DNA of 64,000 nt. It comes from Bacteroidota bacterium (GTDB lineage Bacteria > Bacteroidota > Bacteroidia > Bacteroidales > SZUA-534). Shown here piece by piece: positions 58,034-61,842 of this stretch; positions within the stretch are counted from its first letter, which is position 1, and every line of letters begins with the position of its first letter. Where the stretch lies: positions 1 to 64,000 of the forward strand of contig QKGS01000079.1 of NCBI GenBank assembly GCA_003250355.1, read 5' to 3'. The translations under genes and the position numbers were made by a program. The notes beneath the pieces were generated by a model. The model saw only the letters and a program-made list of their open reading frames with translations. It did no database searches and was not told the origin of the DNA.

Positions 58034-59236
58034 CTATTGTTCAATATTGCTCTTATCAACAATCAGAATTTTTTCAGGATTAACTTTACTTATTTCCTCA
58101 TACCATCCTTTTATTGTTACAAGATTCTTATATAATTCATCAACCGCTATAACTTTTCCAATATGAAAACACGATGTTTCATTCATCTCTCTGTCATATG
58201 CAGTATATAAAACAAGCATACCTTCCTTTATATTCTCTGTTGTAGCTTGATGCCATTGAAAAATAACATCTTTACTCCAAATTTCTTCAGTACTGCAATC
58301 GCCCATTGCCAATACCTGATACTCCCCTTTTGTAGCATCGGTAGCAACAGTTTTTACCTTTGCCGGGCTATACTTTTTATACTGAAATCGGGTTTCTTTA
58401 TCAGATTCAACCATAAGTTTGCTACCAACAGACACAGTGTTCGCTACCGTTGTAGTTGTAGAAACTGATGGCACAGAAGCAGCAGGAGTAGAAATATTTT
58501 CTTGCTTTGCCGCTGAATTATCCTCAGAACTCTGCGATGATGAAGAAACTGCCTGCGATTGAACAGGCGCACTTCCCGATGGTGCAACTTCTTGTACCGG
58601 CTCAATTTCGCTAAGTAACTCCATACACATATCGTAGCACTCTTTACTTACTGAAGGTACTGATTCTAAAACTTTAATCGCCTTGTTATTCTCACCTTGC
58701 TGATGTAATGCCTTTGCTCTTGAAATTATAAAATCACATTCCGAATTATAGAACTCAAGTATTTTCTCTTTTCCTTTCTCAACAAATGCTTTAAACTGGC
58801 CGGCATTAGTATTCAACACTTTCACTGCTTCCATATAGGCTTTAGTTTCATTTTTTCCTACACCTTTTACTTCTATGGATGTTTGGCTATACACATTGCC
58901 CGACATATTGTCTTTAATTTCAAAATTCACACTTAATGTAAGTGCGTGCATTGGTGGAGCACTTGGAGTAATATCTTTTGTTAGTACATCAATACTTACA
59001 TCCATTACAAAAAAAGGATTTTCACCTTCTCCCGACATTCCATTTTTAGTACAAATTTGCTTCATTTTATTTATAAGCAAATTCTTGGTAGCTTGTGGAA
59101 TTGCCTGATCTGATACTTGTGGCGTTATTGCAATACGCGCTGCGTCGTCGGCTTTTGCTTCATTATTCTGAGCTGTAACCGTTGTTAAGCCTATGAATAA
59201 TACAGCTAATAGCATTATAATTTTTTTCATAATCAT
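58034..59236 (-). CDS. Secreted protein of unknown function with low-complexity linker
   Basis: 400 residues; signal peptide (KKIIMLLAVLFIGLTTVTAQ); the ATG two codons inside (59230) is an equally good start. Residues about 25-150 form an alpha/beta domain (VLTKDITPSAPPMHALTLSVNF, then KNETKAYMEAVKVL) like the CsgG/FlgT-type folds of periplasmic proteins; 150-210 look like a TPR pair (ALHQQGENNKAIKVLESVP); 210-275 is a Ser/Ala/Gln/Thr-rich linker; the last 125 residues are a beta domain with YKKYSPAKVKTVATDA. Third gene of an operon with 59299 and 60298. Confidence 0.7.
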   Translation of the reverse strand: MIMKKIIMLLAVLFIGLTTVTAQNNEAKADDAARIAITPQVSDQAIPQATKNLLINKMKQICTKNGMSGEGENPFFVMDVSIDVLTKDITPSAPPMHALTLSVNFEIKDNMSGNVYSQTSIEVKGVGKNETKAYMEAVKVLNTNAGQFKAFVEKGKEKILEFYNSECDFIISRAKALHQQGENNKAIKVLESVPSVSKECYDMCMELLSEIEPVQEVAPSGSAPVQSQAVSSSSQSSEDNSAAKQENISTPAASVPSVSTTTTVANTVSVGSKLMVESDKETRFQYKKYSPAKVKTVATDATKGEYQVLAMGDCSTEEIWSKDVIFQWHQATTENIKEGMLVLYTAYDREMNETSCFHIGKVIAVDELYKNLVTIKGWYEEISKVNPEKILIVDKSNIEQ

Positions 59237-59298
59237 TCAATTTTAGTTTTATTACTTTATTGATGCATTGAATAAATAATATGTTGCTTGCAAACCGA

Positions 59299-60264
59299 TT
59301 ATTTTTCACCAACAATTAACCATGCTTCACCTAAACCTTTCAAATAAACTTTACATTCAATCATGAAAGGCTCATCAGAAAGAAACTTTTTTAAGTCAGT
59401 AACGAATTTTTTAGTATCCATTGCTCTCTGTGAACCATTACGTTCGTAGAATAAAGGAGTGCGAACTTGTTCAAAACGCATCATATTAGCAGTACCATCC
59501 GATAAACTGAATCGTCCCTGAACTGTATTTTTTGCCATCCAGTCTTCTATGAAAATATTTAATTCGTCTGTTTCACCATCAAAATCATACTCTGCTTCCA
59601 GATCACTTCCCCAGCCATCGAAAACCATAACATTAATACGCACCTCGCGTCCATTGGCAAACATATCTTCAAAATGAGCCATTAAACGACCATTGAACTC
59701 ATCCATATAACTCAATACAGCCTCTTCAAGAAGTAATTCTGCCGGCGCAGCAGTACTTGGAGCTCCTGTTCCTGCGGCTGATGCTACAACTTTGCTTGTA
59801 TAAGCATCGAGTCCTTTTAAGTTAAATGTTATATATTGCTTTGGCCCTTGTTGCTTTACCTCATAGTCGAGTTCCATTATAATATCGGCTTTAGCAGTAC
59901 GCTTCAATGCATCAATAGGCGACTCTGCTATCATGCTACCCATTTTACTAGTCATCATGCTAACTTCAGCTGCTTCTTGCTCCATTTTTTTCATCTCTGC
60001 CTCAAGGTCTTTTAATGGGAAACCTCTGTCTGCCATTATTCCCGACATTTTTGTAATAACAAGTCGCAAACTGGCATCATTCTGAAATGCCTTCTTATAA
60101 TCGGGTAAAACTACCTCTGATCCCTGATTATCGAATTTCATACTATACCCTTGGCTAATACACATTCTGTCGCTTGGCACTACCATTATTGTAGGCTTCT
60201 TTGCCTGACTATATGATGCTATTGAAAATAAAGCTGCTACTACTATTAATATAAGTTTTTTCAT
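59299..60264 (-). CDS. Secreted DUF6175-like protein
   Basis: 321 residues with signal peptide (ending ASYSQ). Starts KPTIMVVPSDRMCISQGY, a pattern of the DUF6175 proteins of Bacteroidota, and continues with KADIIMELDYEVKQQGPKQYITFNL and VYLKGLGEAWLIVGEK. The overall alternation of strands and amphipathic helices recalls CsgG/LpoB-type periplasmic domains. Function unknown. Between two other secreted genes, 62 bases from the downstream start and 33 from the upstream stop. Confidence 0.72.
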   Translation of the reverse strand: MKKLILIVVAALFSIASYSQAKKPTIMVVPSDRMCISQGYSMKFDNQGSEVVLPDYKKAFQNDASLRLVITKMSGIMADRGFPLKDLEAEMKKMEQEAAEVSMMTSKMGSMIAESPIDALKRTAKADIIMELDYEVKQQGPKQYITFNLKGLDAYTSKVVASAAGTGAPSTAAPAELLLEEAVLSYMDEFNGRLMAHFEDMFANGREVRINVMVFDGWGSDLEAEYDFDGETDELNIFIEDWMAKNTVQGRFSLSDGTANMMRFEQVRTPLFYERNGSQRAMDTKKFVTDLKKFLSDEPFMIECKVYLKGLGEAWLIVGEK

Positions 60265-60297
60265 TGTTTTTATTATTTATATATGTAATAAGGTTAA

Positions 60298-60822
60298 TTA
60301 AAATCCTGCATCAAGTGCTCTTGCAATTCCTTGCTTTTCCAGTTCTTTTCTAAGCTCATCAAATGCAATAGAAACTGCTATGCCACACTTATAGTGTTTA
60401 TCCATTTTTATCCGTTTGGGGGCAACATCGCTACTCATATTTACATATAGCAAATATTGACCTCCGGGTTCAAAGAATTTTTCAAAATAATCGTAATGTT
60501 CATCGGCAGCATTGCTATTGGAACAAATAGGTGGTGTTTTCGCCGCTTTTCCTCCTCCGGCAGCAGGAAATCCTTTAAATATTGCACAGGCTACTGCATT
60601 CATTTTTGCATTTCGGGTGGCATCTTCAGCCTTCTTTCCATATCCCCACACTTCAATAAGTTTAGTTCCATCAACACCTACTGCTATTGTTGCTACTTCA
60701 TAGTTGTATGAGCTGTTATACTCCATTTTACGCACCTGATTTCTTGTTTGTGCATTAAGTACTGTTACATTAATTGCTGCAATTGCAATTAATGTCATTG
60801 CTAATTTTAATACTCTTCTCAT
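60298..60822 (-). CDS. Secreted LPP20/FlgT-N-like protein
   Basis: 174 residues with signal peptide (ending VTVLNAQ). The middle, EVWGYGKKAEDATRNAKMNA followed by VACAIF, is the G-x-G-x-x-x-x-x-A-x-x-x-A-x-x-x-A pattern of LPP20/FlgT N-terminal domains. Contains three Cys. First gene of the operon 60822-58034. With its neighbours it suggests a periplasmic or outer-membrane complex, purpose unknown. Confidence 0.7.
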   Translation of the reverse strand: MRRVLKLAMTLIAIAAINVTVLNAQTRNQVRKMEYNSSYNYEVATIAVGVDGTKLIEVWGYGKKAEDATRNAKMNAVACAIFKGFPAAGGGKAAKTPPICSNSNAADEHYDYFEKFFEPGGQYLLYVNMSSDVAPKRIKMDKHYKCGIAVSIAFDELRKELEKQGIARALDAGF

Positions 60823-61210: not shown

Positions 61211-61218
61211 TATATTTG
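61211..61218 (+). promoter_or_regulatory. -7 box of structured RNA 1
   Basis: TATATTTG, 8 bases before the conserved AGGTTATAG start of RNA 1. No TTG at the standard -33 distance. Confidence 0.55.
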
Positions 61219-61224
61219 CATCAT

Positions 61225-61385
61225 AGGTTATAGTTCTTTGAAATGCTTGTTGTGGGAATCTCTTCTTTAAATTCCTAAAATGCTATAACCTCTTCTTTAG
61301 GGCTACAGTAATTTTTTTCATGGGTTAATTAATTTGGTTGAATAATATTGGACAATTTTTTCTCACAACAAGCTTTCATTTTTTA
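61225..61385 (+). ncRNA. Structured RNA, copy 1 (class not recognised)
   Basis: About 160 bases. Ends pair: GCTTGTTGTGGGA (61245-61257) with TCTCACAACAAGC (61361-61373), 13 pairs, flanked by GAAA/TTTC. Inside, a variable region is followed by conserved text also found in copy 2 (ACAGTAATTTTTT, CATGGGTTAATTAATTTGG, AATAATATTG). The 5' AGGTTATAG can instead pair with CTATAACCT at 61283-61291, which copy 2 lacks. A U-run follows the 3' arm. Shape (closing stem, large unpaired middle, about 160 bases) is compatible with 6S RNA, but no class is claimed. Confidence 0.65.
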
Positions 61386-61458
61386 TCATCTTTACACTGC
61401 ACAAATAAATCATCTCCTCAAAATTAGCAAAACATTTTTCAATTAAGCTTATTAATAT

Positions 61459-61569
61459 GACACTACTCACTTTTTGTAGAGAATGTCAATTTATTAGCTT
61501 CTAAAATGTTTTCATTTTTAGTCAGCAGCTCACAGAACTCTATTATATTCCGCCTGTAAACTATTGACT
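61459..61569 (-). repeat. Composite dispersed repeat, copy B (inverted)
   Basis: Read on the minus strand: an imperfect inverted repeat of heptad type (arms 61569-61548 and 61541-61520, with CTGCTGACT at its end), then TAAAAATGAAAACATTTTAG, AATAAAT, and the module ending at 61459. The order and sequence match copy A at 33736-33882 apart from the 13-base duplication there. The module at 61459-61493 also matches 53709-53745. Confidence 0.65.
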
Positions 61570-61650
61570 CAATTCCGATTAAAGAATACTAACACCTAAA
61601 AGATTACCCGCTAAAATAGCAGTAGAACCATTTTTTTTATAAATCAGATT

Positions 61651-61680
61651 TTGATTTTTGTTGAATTTATTGTAATTTTG
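61651..61680 (+). promoter_or_regulatory. Promoter of structured RNA 2
   Basis: TTG 61651-61653, 19 bases, TAATTTTG 61673-61680, 10 bases before the conserved AGGTTATAG. Full consensus geometry. Confidence 0.75.
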
Positions 61681-61689
61681 ATTGAACAA

Positions 61690-61842
61690 AAGGTTATAGT
61701 TCTTTGAAATGCTTGTTGTGGAGTACTCTTCTTATTAAGCTCATTTTTATTATGAGTTTTCTTCAATGTTACAGTAATTTTTTCATGGGTTAATTAATTT
61801 GGTTAAATAATATTGAACTATCCACAACAAGCTTTCTTTTCA
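61690..61842 (+). ncRNA. Structured RNA, copy 2 (class not recognised)
   Basis: About 150 bases. GCTTGTTGTGGA (61711-61722) pairs perfectly with TCCACAACAAGC (61821-61832), again flanked by GAAA/TTTC. An internal hairpin AAGCTCAT/ATGAGTTT (61737-61758) occupies the region that differs from copy 1. The downstream core ACAGTAATTTTTT, CATGGGTTAATTAATTTGG, TTAAATAATATTGA is shared. The closing stem differs between copies by changes that keep pairing (GGA/TCC here, GGGA/TCTC in copy 1). Confidence 0.68.

Follow-up and report, generated by a model that had tools for sequence, protein, structure and literature searches.

The FopS/GibS small RNAs (sRNAs) of Bacteroides thetaiotaomicron are paralogues that bind start-codon regions (PMC11697453) by means of a single-stranded sequence shared between several sRNA genes (PMC11697453, PMC7366714). 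FopS, described as conserved within Bacteroidaceae (PMC11697453), consists of a 5' single-stranded stretch followed by a terminator, and some members of the group are derived from 3' UTRs. The 6S RNA of Bacteroides, together with its product RNAs, is known from experiment (PMC7366714). In rRNA operon leaders, boxA sits beside the 5' strand of a helix that forms over a long distance; the leader-trailer helix of Escherichia coli is treated in PMC10250234. Nus-factor regulation through boxA also extends outside rRNA operons, to suhB and others, in which case boxA is found close upstream of coding genes (PMC5725501).

The locus described here resembles each of these systems in part. The window, by which we mean the whole stretch of 64,000 nt of Bacteroidota DNA under analysis, holds two homologous RNA genes of ~155 nt (61225-61386 and 61691-61841) that we refer to as sRNA A. 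The placement of boxA in sRNA A is that seen in rRNA operon leaders; in contrast to them, sRNA A is ~155 nt long, contains no rRNA and has an unrelated core. As with suhB, the boxA lies outside rRNA operons, but it begins a non-coding RNA. Like FopS/GibS, which come from the same order, several sRNA genes share one single-stranded sequence, here a core present in sRNA A, in a second sRNA (sRNA B) and in a candidate RNA C that is 3'-UTR-derived, as some FopS/GibS members are. Binding of the shared sequence to start-codon regions has been shown for FopS/GibS and is only proposed for the core of sRNA A. The layouts also differ, since sRNA A is a closed, pseudoknotted RNA with boxA whose core sits inside the closed stem, whereas sRNA B fits the FopS layout. 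No Rfam match to FopS was obtained (FopS may be absent from the release).

Two tandem RNA genes and their predicted fold

The initial annotation of this region had described two homologous structured RNAs in tandem, each preceded by its own -7 box, and both observations were borne out. The copies are related by ungapped direct repeats of 52 nt at 85% identity and 44 nt at 93% identity, at a spacing of 465-466 nt, and the arms of both closing stems are inverted repeats. The predicted transcript starts with AGGTTATAG in both copies, with a -7 box of the form TAnnTTTG, which is the form used by Bacteroidota promoters (PMC9723704), located 14-18 nt upstream. Beyond the two window copies, 15 of 17 homologues retain this box, at 14-19 nt. 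A scan with the sigma-70 consensus was uninformative, with 9 sites found versus 9 expected. The features of the locus are as follows.

61211-61218, + strand: -7 promoter box of copy 1, TATATTTG, from the sequence, with TAnnTTTG kept in homologues
61225-61386, + strand: sRNA A copy 1, predicted transcript from 5' AGG to the U-rich 3' tail
61226-61233, + strand: 5' tail GGTTATAG, predicted as one strand of the pseudoknot helix from compensatory changes with the inner segment
61232-61244, + strand: boxA of copy 1, AGTTCTTTGAAAT, matching the 16S rRNA leader boxA of Salinivirgaceae
61242-61258, + strand: 5' arm of the closing stem of copy 1 (inverted repeat, covariation)
61283-61290, + strand: inner segment CTATAACC of copy 1, predicted to pair either with the 5' tail or with the GGTTA within the core
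61313-61356, + strand: conserved open core of copy 1, including the 18-mer TTTTTCATGGGTTAATTA (61314-61331) common to sRNAs B and C
61360-61376, + strand: 3' arm of the closing stem of copy 1 (inverted repeat, covariation)
61374-61386, + strand: U-rich tail of copy 1 after the stem, T-rich in most relatives; probable 3' end
61673-61680, + strand: -7 promoter box of copy 2, TAATTTTG, of the form TAnnTTTG
61691-61841, + strand: sRNA A copy 2
61698-61710, + strand: boxA of copy 2, AGTTCTTTGAAAT
61708-61722, + strand: 5' arm of the closing stem of copy 2 (inverted repeat)
61737-61760, + strand: inner hairpin AAGCTCAT..ATGAGTTT, predicted by folding in copy 2 only, in place of a clean CTATAACC
61778-61821, + strand: conserved open core of copy 2, with the 18-mer at 61779-61796
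61821-61835, + strand: 3' arm of the closing stem of copy 2 (inverted repeat), then a U-rich tail to 61841

Each copy is probably an independent non-coding RNA gene of ~150-160 nt with a sigma-A-type promoter box, its predicted limits being placed at the level of promoter and U-tract. The annotation had found no coding frame to explain the region, in agreement with our comparison of homologues: single-base differences in the T-run ahead of CATGGG disrupt any minus-strand frame. A candidate minus-strand leader peptide (ATGAAAAAA..) was rejected because the length of its A-run shifts the frame between homologues.

For structural analysis, 22 homologous sequences of sRNA A were aligned. Read from 5' to 3', the element begins with the TAnnTTTG box, the 5' tail AGGUUAUAG and boxA AGUUCUUUGAAAU. 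The 5' arm of the closing stem (consensus GCUUGUUGURRGG/CCUUACAACAAGC) is followed by a variable pyrimidine-rich stretch, the inner segment CUAUAACC, UCUUCUUUUAGGGCUACAGUA and a U-run of variable length; the 3' half comprises the core CAUGGGUUAAUUAAUUUGGUUGAAUAAUAUUGGACAA, the 3' arm of the stem and a U-rich end. Across the 22 sequences we find the common start, a closing stem whose differences preserve pairing and a core that hardly varies, all noted in the annotation from two copies. The 5' tail GGUUAUAG is moreover complementary to the inner CUAUAACC, and because the resulting helix crosses the closing stem, the fold is a predicted pseudoknot. For the stem and the 5'-tail/inner helix, 98% of cells are paired and 7 pairs are changed on both sides; none of 500 shuffles reaches either statistic, and sliding the register destroys both. 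Compensatory changes between 5' tail and inner segment are seen in homologues L017 (GATTATAG/CTATAATC) and L025a (AGTTATAG/CTATAACT). As judged from sequence comparison, both the closing stem and the pseudoknot are well supported.

RNAalifold, which is blind to pseudoknots, instead proposes a helix between UAACC in the inner segment and GGUUA in the core. Covariation is absent from this core-masking pairing, the core being invariant. The two pairings of the inner segment are mutually exclusive, which suggests a switch in which sRNA A would toggle between core-free and core-masked folds. The variable inner hairpin of the initial annotation stands for copy 2, where it is stable; it does not apply to copy 1 and the relatives, which have CTATAACC, complementary to the 5' tail.

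Distribution of sRNA A and separation from 6S RNA

A covariance-model search identified sRNA A in 19 of 20 Salinivirgaceae genomes, including all 17 of good quality. Among 393 Bacteroidales genomes searched with the covariance model, none of the 388 from other families gave a match, under stricter filters that may lose weak matches. Likewise, most Salinivirgaceae genomes yielded homologues when searched at the DNA level, and none of 40 other-family genomes yielded the whole element. The order-level BLAST matches L020-L023 were rejected as chance: three resemble the antisense of MKK gene starts, and the remaining one is an AT-rich stretch. No other part of the RNA accompanies that stretch, and the same is true of 19-mer matches from Avacholeplasma (L056) and Mariprofundaceae (L069). 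The window's genome and G004 have two copies each, G001 has three and the others mostly one, with tandem copies in three genera; a small tree with modest support suggests that the copies arose by separate duplications.

The position before secA, included in the initial annotation, turned out to be incidental. Copy 2 ends ~170 nt upstream of secA in the window, and this proximity, together with the tandem copies, would be expected of a secA cis-regulatory leader or of a mobile repeat lacking RNA function. We consider such an origin extremely improbable, because the gene downstream differs from genome to genome, the element has its own promoter, U-rich end and covariation, and it occurs mostly as one copy per genome in a conserved place beside an upstream divergent operon. 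As the downstream gene is not conserved, sRNA A is not tied to secA and would therefore act in trans. The divergent operon (58034-60822 in the window) encodes secreted proteins of 174, 321 and 400 aa and adjoins the RNA in most Salinivirgaceae genomes. A gene of ~575 aa lies between operon and RNA in relatives and is missing in the window's genome.

The closing stem with an open middle had also led to the proposal of a 6S-like RNA, which did not hold. In Rfam searches at E up to 10, sRNA A had no match other than a spurious one to a snoRNA model, and the models RF00013, RF01685 and RF01693 in particular did not match the window RNAs at E<=10. At the level of the whole genome, RF00013 and RF01685 gave no match at E<=0.001. 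We built a Bacteroidales 6S model from weak 6S-Flavo matches in other families, which share one clear consensus; locus L075, cut by a contig end, was excluded. With this model, a separate 6S gene was identified in 17 of 20 Salinivirgaceae genomes, located in the window's own genome at G000:C75:142845-142973 (L100). L100 matches RF01693 (Bacteroidales-1, annotated '6S-Bacteroidales RNA suggested') with E=1e-4 and RF01685 (6S-Flavo) weakly, in both cases below the gathering score (36 vs 60 bits and 27 vs 85 bits, respectively). Because Rfam cut-offs miss L100, such Salinivirgaceae 6S genes would remain unannotated.

Since the window's genome has a separate 6S locus, sRNA A is something else. It resembles Bacteroidales-1/6S-Flavo in length, in having boxA close to the gene's 5' end and in a closing stem leading into a U-tract, but the two have no inner sequence in common and occupy separate loci in the same genomes. 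Compared with the 6S shape of closing stem, symmetric central bubble and apical stem, the closing stem is present, while the middle consists of a one-sided conserved strand and the 5'-tail pseudoknot, with no conserved apical stem. 6S duplicates exist in other phyla, and a diverged second 6S RNA (a 6S-2 analogue), binding RNA polymerase through closing stem and open middle, would account for the length and layout just described. It is nevertheless very unlikely given the absence of 6S model matches, the canonical 6S elsewhere in the genome and the nature of the conserved part, a single-stranded core on one side only that also occurs in a short sRNA of non-6S shape.

The annotation's further suggestion of an undescribed class agrees with the lack of a genuine Rfam match, the covariation and the conserved promoters. 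No earlier description was found within open-access papers, and we regard sRNA A as previously undescribed. It appears to be present in essentially every member of Salinivirgaceae (Bacteroidales) and to be distinct from the 6S RNA of that family.

A core shared with sRNAs B and C

Within Salinivirgaceae, the 18-nt core UUUUUCAUGGGUUAAUUA is found exactly only in sRNAs A, B and C, and the exact 18-mer is in none of the 388 other-family genomes (the reversed control pattern gave zero matches). sRNA B, found in five genera via a search for core-complementary sites, is a standalone, likewise undescribed RNA of ~100 nt with its own TATATTTG promoter and a scaffold unrelated to that of sRNA A. Its sequence reads GCACUCUUCACUUCAUUUUGUUACUUUUUCAUGGGUUAAUUAWUCAAGUGC, followed by a GC-rich hairpin. 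The arms of this terminator hairpin covary between genera (GGGCTGCC/GGCAGCCC, GGGTCGCC/GGCGACCC and AGGTTGCC/GGCAACCT). The hairpin loop is of UCCC type; sRNA B loci are G000:C69:17770-17787 (- strand, L157), L172, L159, L174, L162 and L163. Candidate RNA C of the window's genome (G000:C5:34116-34133, - strand, L154) would be derived from a 3' UTR, the stop codon of the gene running directly into TTTTTTTCATGGGTTAATTA and then a terminator hairpin whose loop is TCCCC. A near-match to the core, with G as last base, is followed by a strong terminator hairpin at G004:C164:40860-40877 (L179); this locus is either a further RNA with the core or lies antisense to the start of a 51-aa ORF.

The core therefore looks like a reused module, acting either as a seed or as a protein site, and it is the strongest clue to function. 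It is antisense to the start-codon region UAAUUAACCCAUGAAAAA, a typical Bacteroidota start of MKK.. proteins, and in the window's genome start regions are rich in A at about -13 to -11 and downstream of AUG. The search for core-complementary sites yielded no near-perfect mRNA target conserved across Salinivirgaceae. Target statistics were computed on 304 start regions from a 426-kb sample of the window's genome. For the core as it stands in sRNA B, 6 of the 304 reach <= -16 kcal/mol, versus 1.3 for shuffled cores (0 of 60 shuffles reach this number); the A version gave no excess over shuffled cores. Enrichment of targets is thus at best weak. Within the sample, a gene resembling a chemoreceptor or sensor (G000:C63, AAAUAACCCAUGAAAAAAUGAAAAG) came out as the best individual candidate.

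While the family and the structure of sRNA A are well supported, we infer its mechanism. We give roughly even chances to sRNA A being a family-wide trans-acting regulator whose core is antisense to start-codon regions. Somewhat doubtful, in our estimate, is that the core serves to bind a protein (of the RRM-type RbpB-like kind, a ribosomal protein or RNA polymerase), with A, B and C serving as sponges or scaffolds without mRNA pairing. Near-invariance over ~40 nt exceeds the needs of a short seed, the same 18-mer recurs in otherwise unrelated RNAs and no convincing conserved mRNA target emerged; RbpB, furthermore, binds single-stranded parts of multicopy Bacteroides sRNAs (PMC11697453). However, the core matches no known protein motif, and a perfect start-codon antisense (CAU and the U-run opposite AUGAAAAA) would be an odd coincidence.

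boxA and the proposed mode of action

The 5' boxA of sRNA A is that of Salinivirgaceae rRNA operons: AGTTCTTTGAAAT compares with AAGTTCTTTGAAATTATG in the 16S leader of G007 and AAGTTCTTTGACATTATG in that of G001; the assembly of the window's genome (G000) contains no 16S. The boxA of the 16S-23S spacer in Salinivirgaceae is AAGTTCTTTGACATGCTGG. Nearly all sRNA A homologues carry boxA, and two of the three occurrences of GTTCTTTGA in 426 kb of the window's genome are in the sRNA A copies. sRNA B has no boxA, so boxA is not part of the function shared by the two RNAs.

A boxA (G[C/T]TCTTT[A/G]A; GTTCTTTGA/GTTCTTTAA) also occurs at the 6S loci (L076-L094 and L095-L111), ~44-77 nt ahead of the 6S start at 15 of 17 other-family loci and at 11 of 17 Salinivirgaceae loci. 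In Bacteroidales 6S genes, boxA is followed by a CCCGCA../..TGCGGG leader-trailer helix running into a T-run. The layout of boxA, closing helix and U-run is common to two unrelated structured Bacteroidales RNAs, sRNA A and 6S, and is reminiscent of the leader-trailer helices of rRNA.

Identity with the rrn leader boxA in nearly all homologues, and the rarity of boxA otherwise in the window's genome, would also suit a decoy that titrates or stores NusB-S10(-SuhB) and tunes rRNA synthesis, the function of the core being secondary. We think this improbable: in Bacteroidales 6S genes boxA is located in a presumably removed leader, which suggests a role in biogenesis, and sRNA B shares the core and lacks boxA.

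For a trans-acting regulator, we hypothesize that boxA recruits NusB-S10 to nascent sRNA A and helps the distant stem arms to pair, by analogy with leader-trailer folding of rRNA. The inner CUAUAACC would then pair either with the 5' tail, which leaves the core free, or with the core's GGUUA, which masks it, and would thus form an on/off switch. A free core UUUUUCAUGGGUUAAUUA may pair with one or more mRNA start-codon regions, with UAAUUAACCCAUGAAAAA as the ideal site at the starts of MKK.. secreted proteins, and this pairing would keep ribosomes from entering, in a manner similar to FopS/GibS of Bacteroides. With its own inner hairpin, copy 2 could represent a version whose core is constitutively free.

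More speculatively, and with little likelihood in our view, NusB-S10 on the 5' boxA may itself decide between the pseudoknot and the core-masked fold, linking antitermination to translational control. If true, the status of ribosome synthesis would set the amount of available anti-start-codon seed, carried also by sRNAs B and C, that represses mRNAs of secreted proteins.

To a phylum in which few sRNAs have been characterised, sRNA A contributes a previously undescribed family. Its pseudoknot covaries, its boxA lies outside rRNA, and unrelated scaffolds reuse its core. The boxA and closing-stem layout that it shares with 6S further raises a testable question, namely whether the Nus complex may aid the maturation of structured RNAs other than rRNA.
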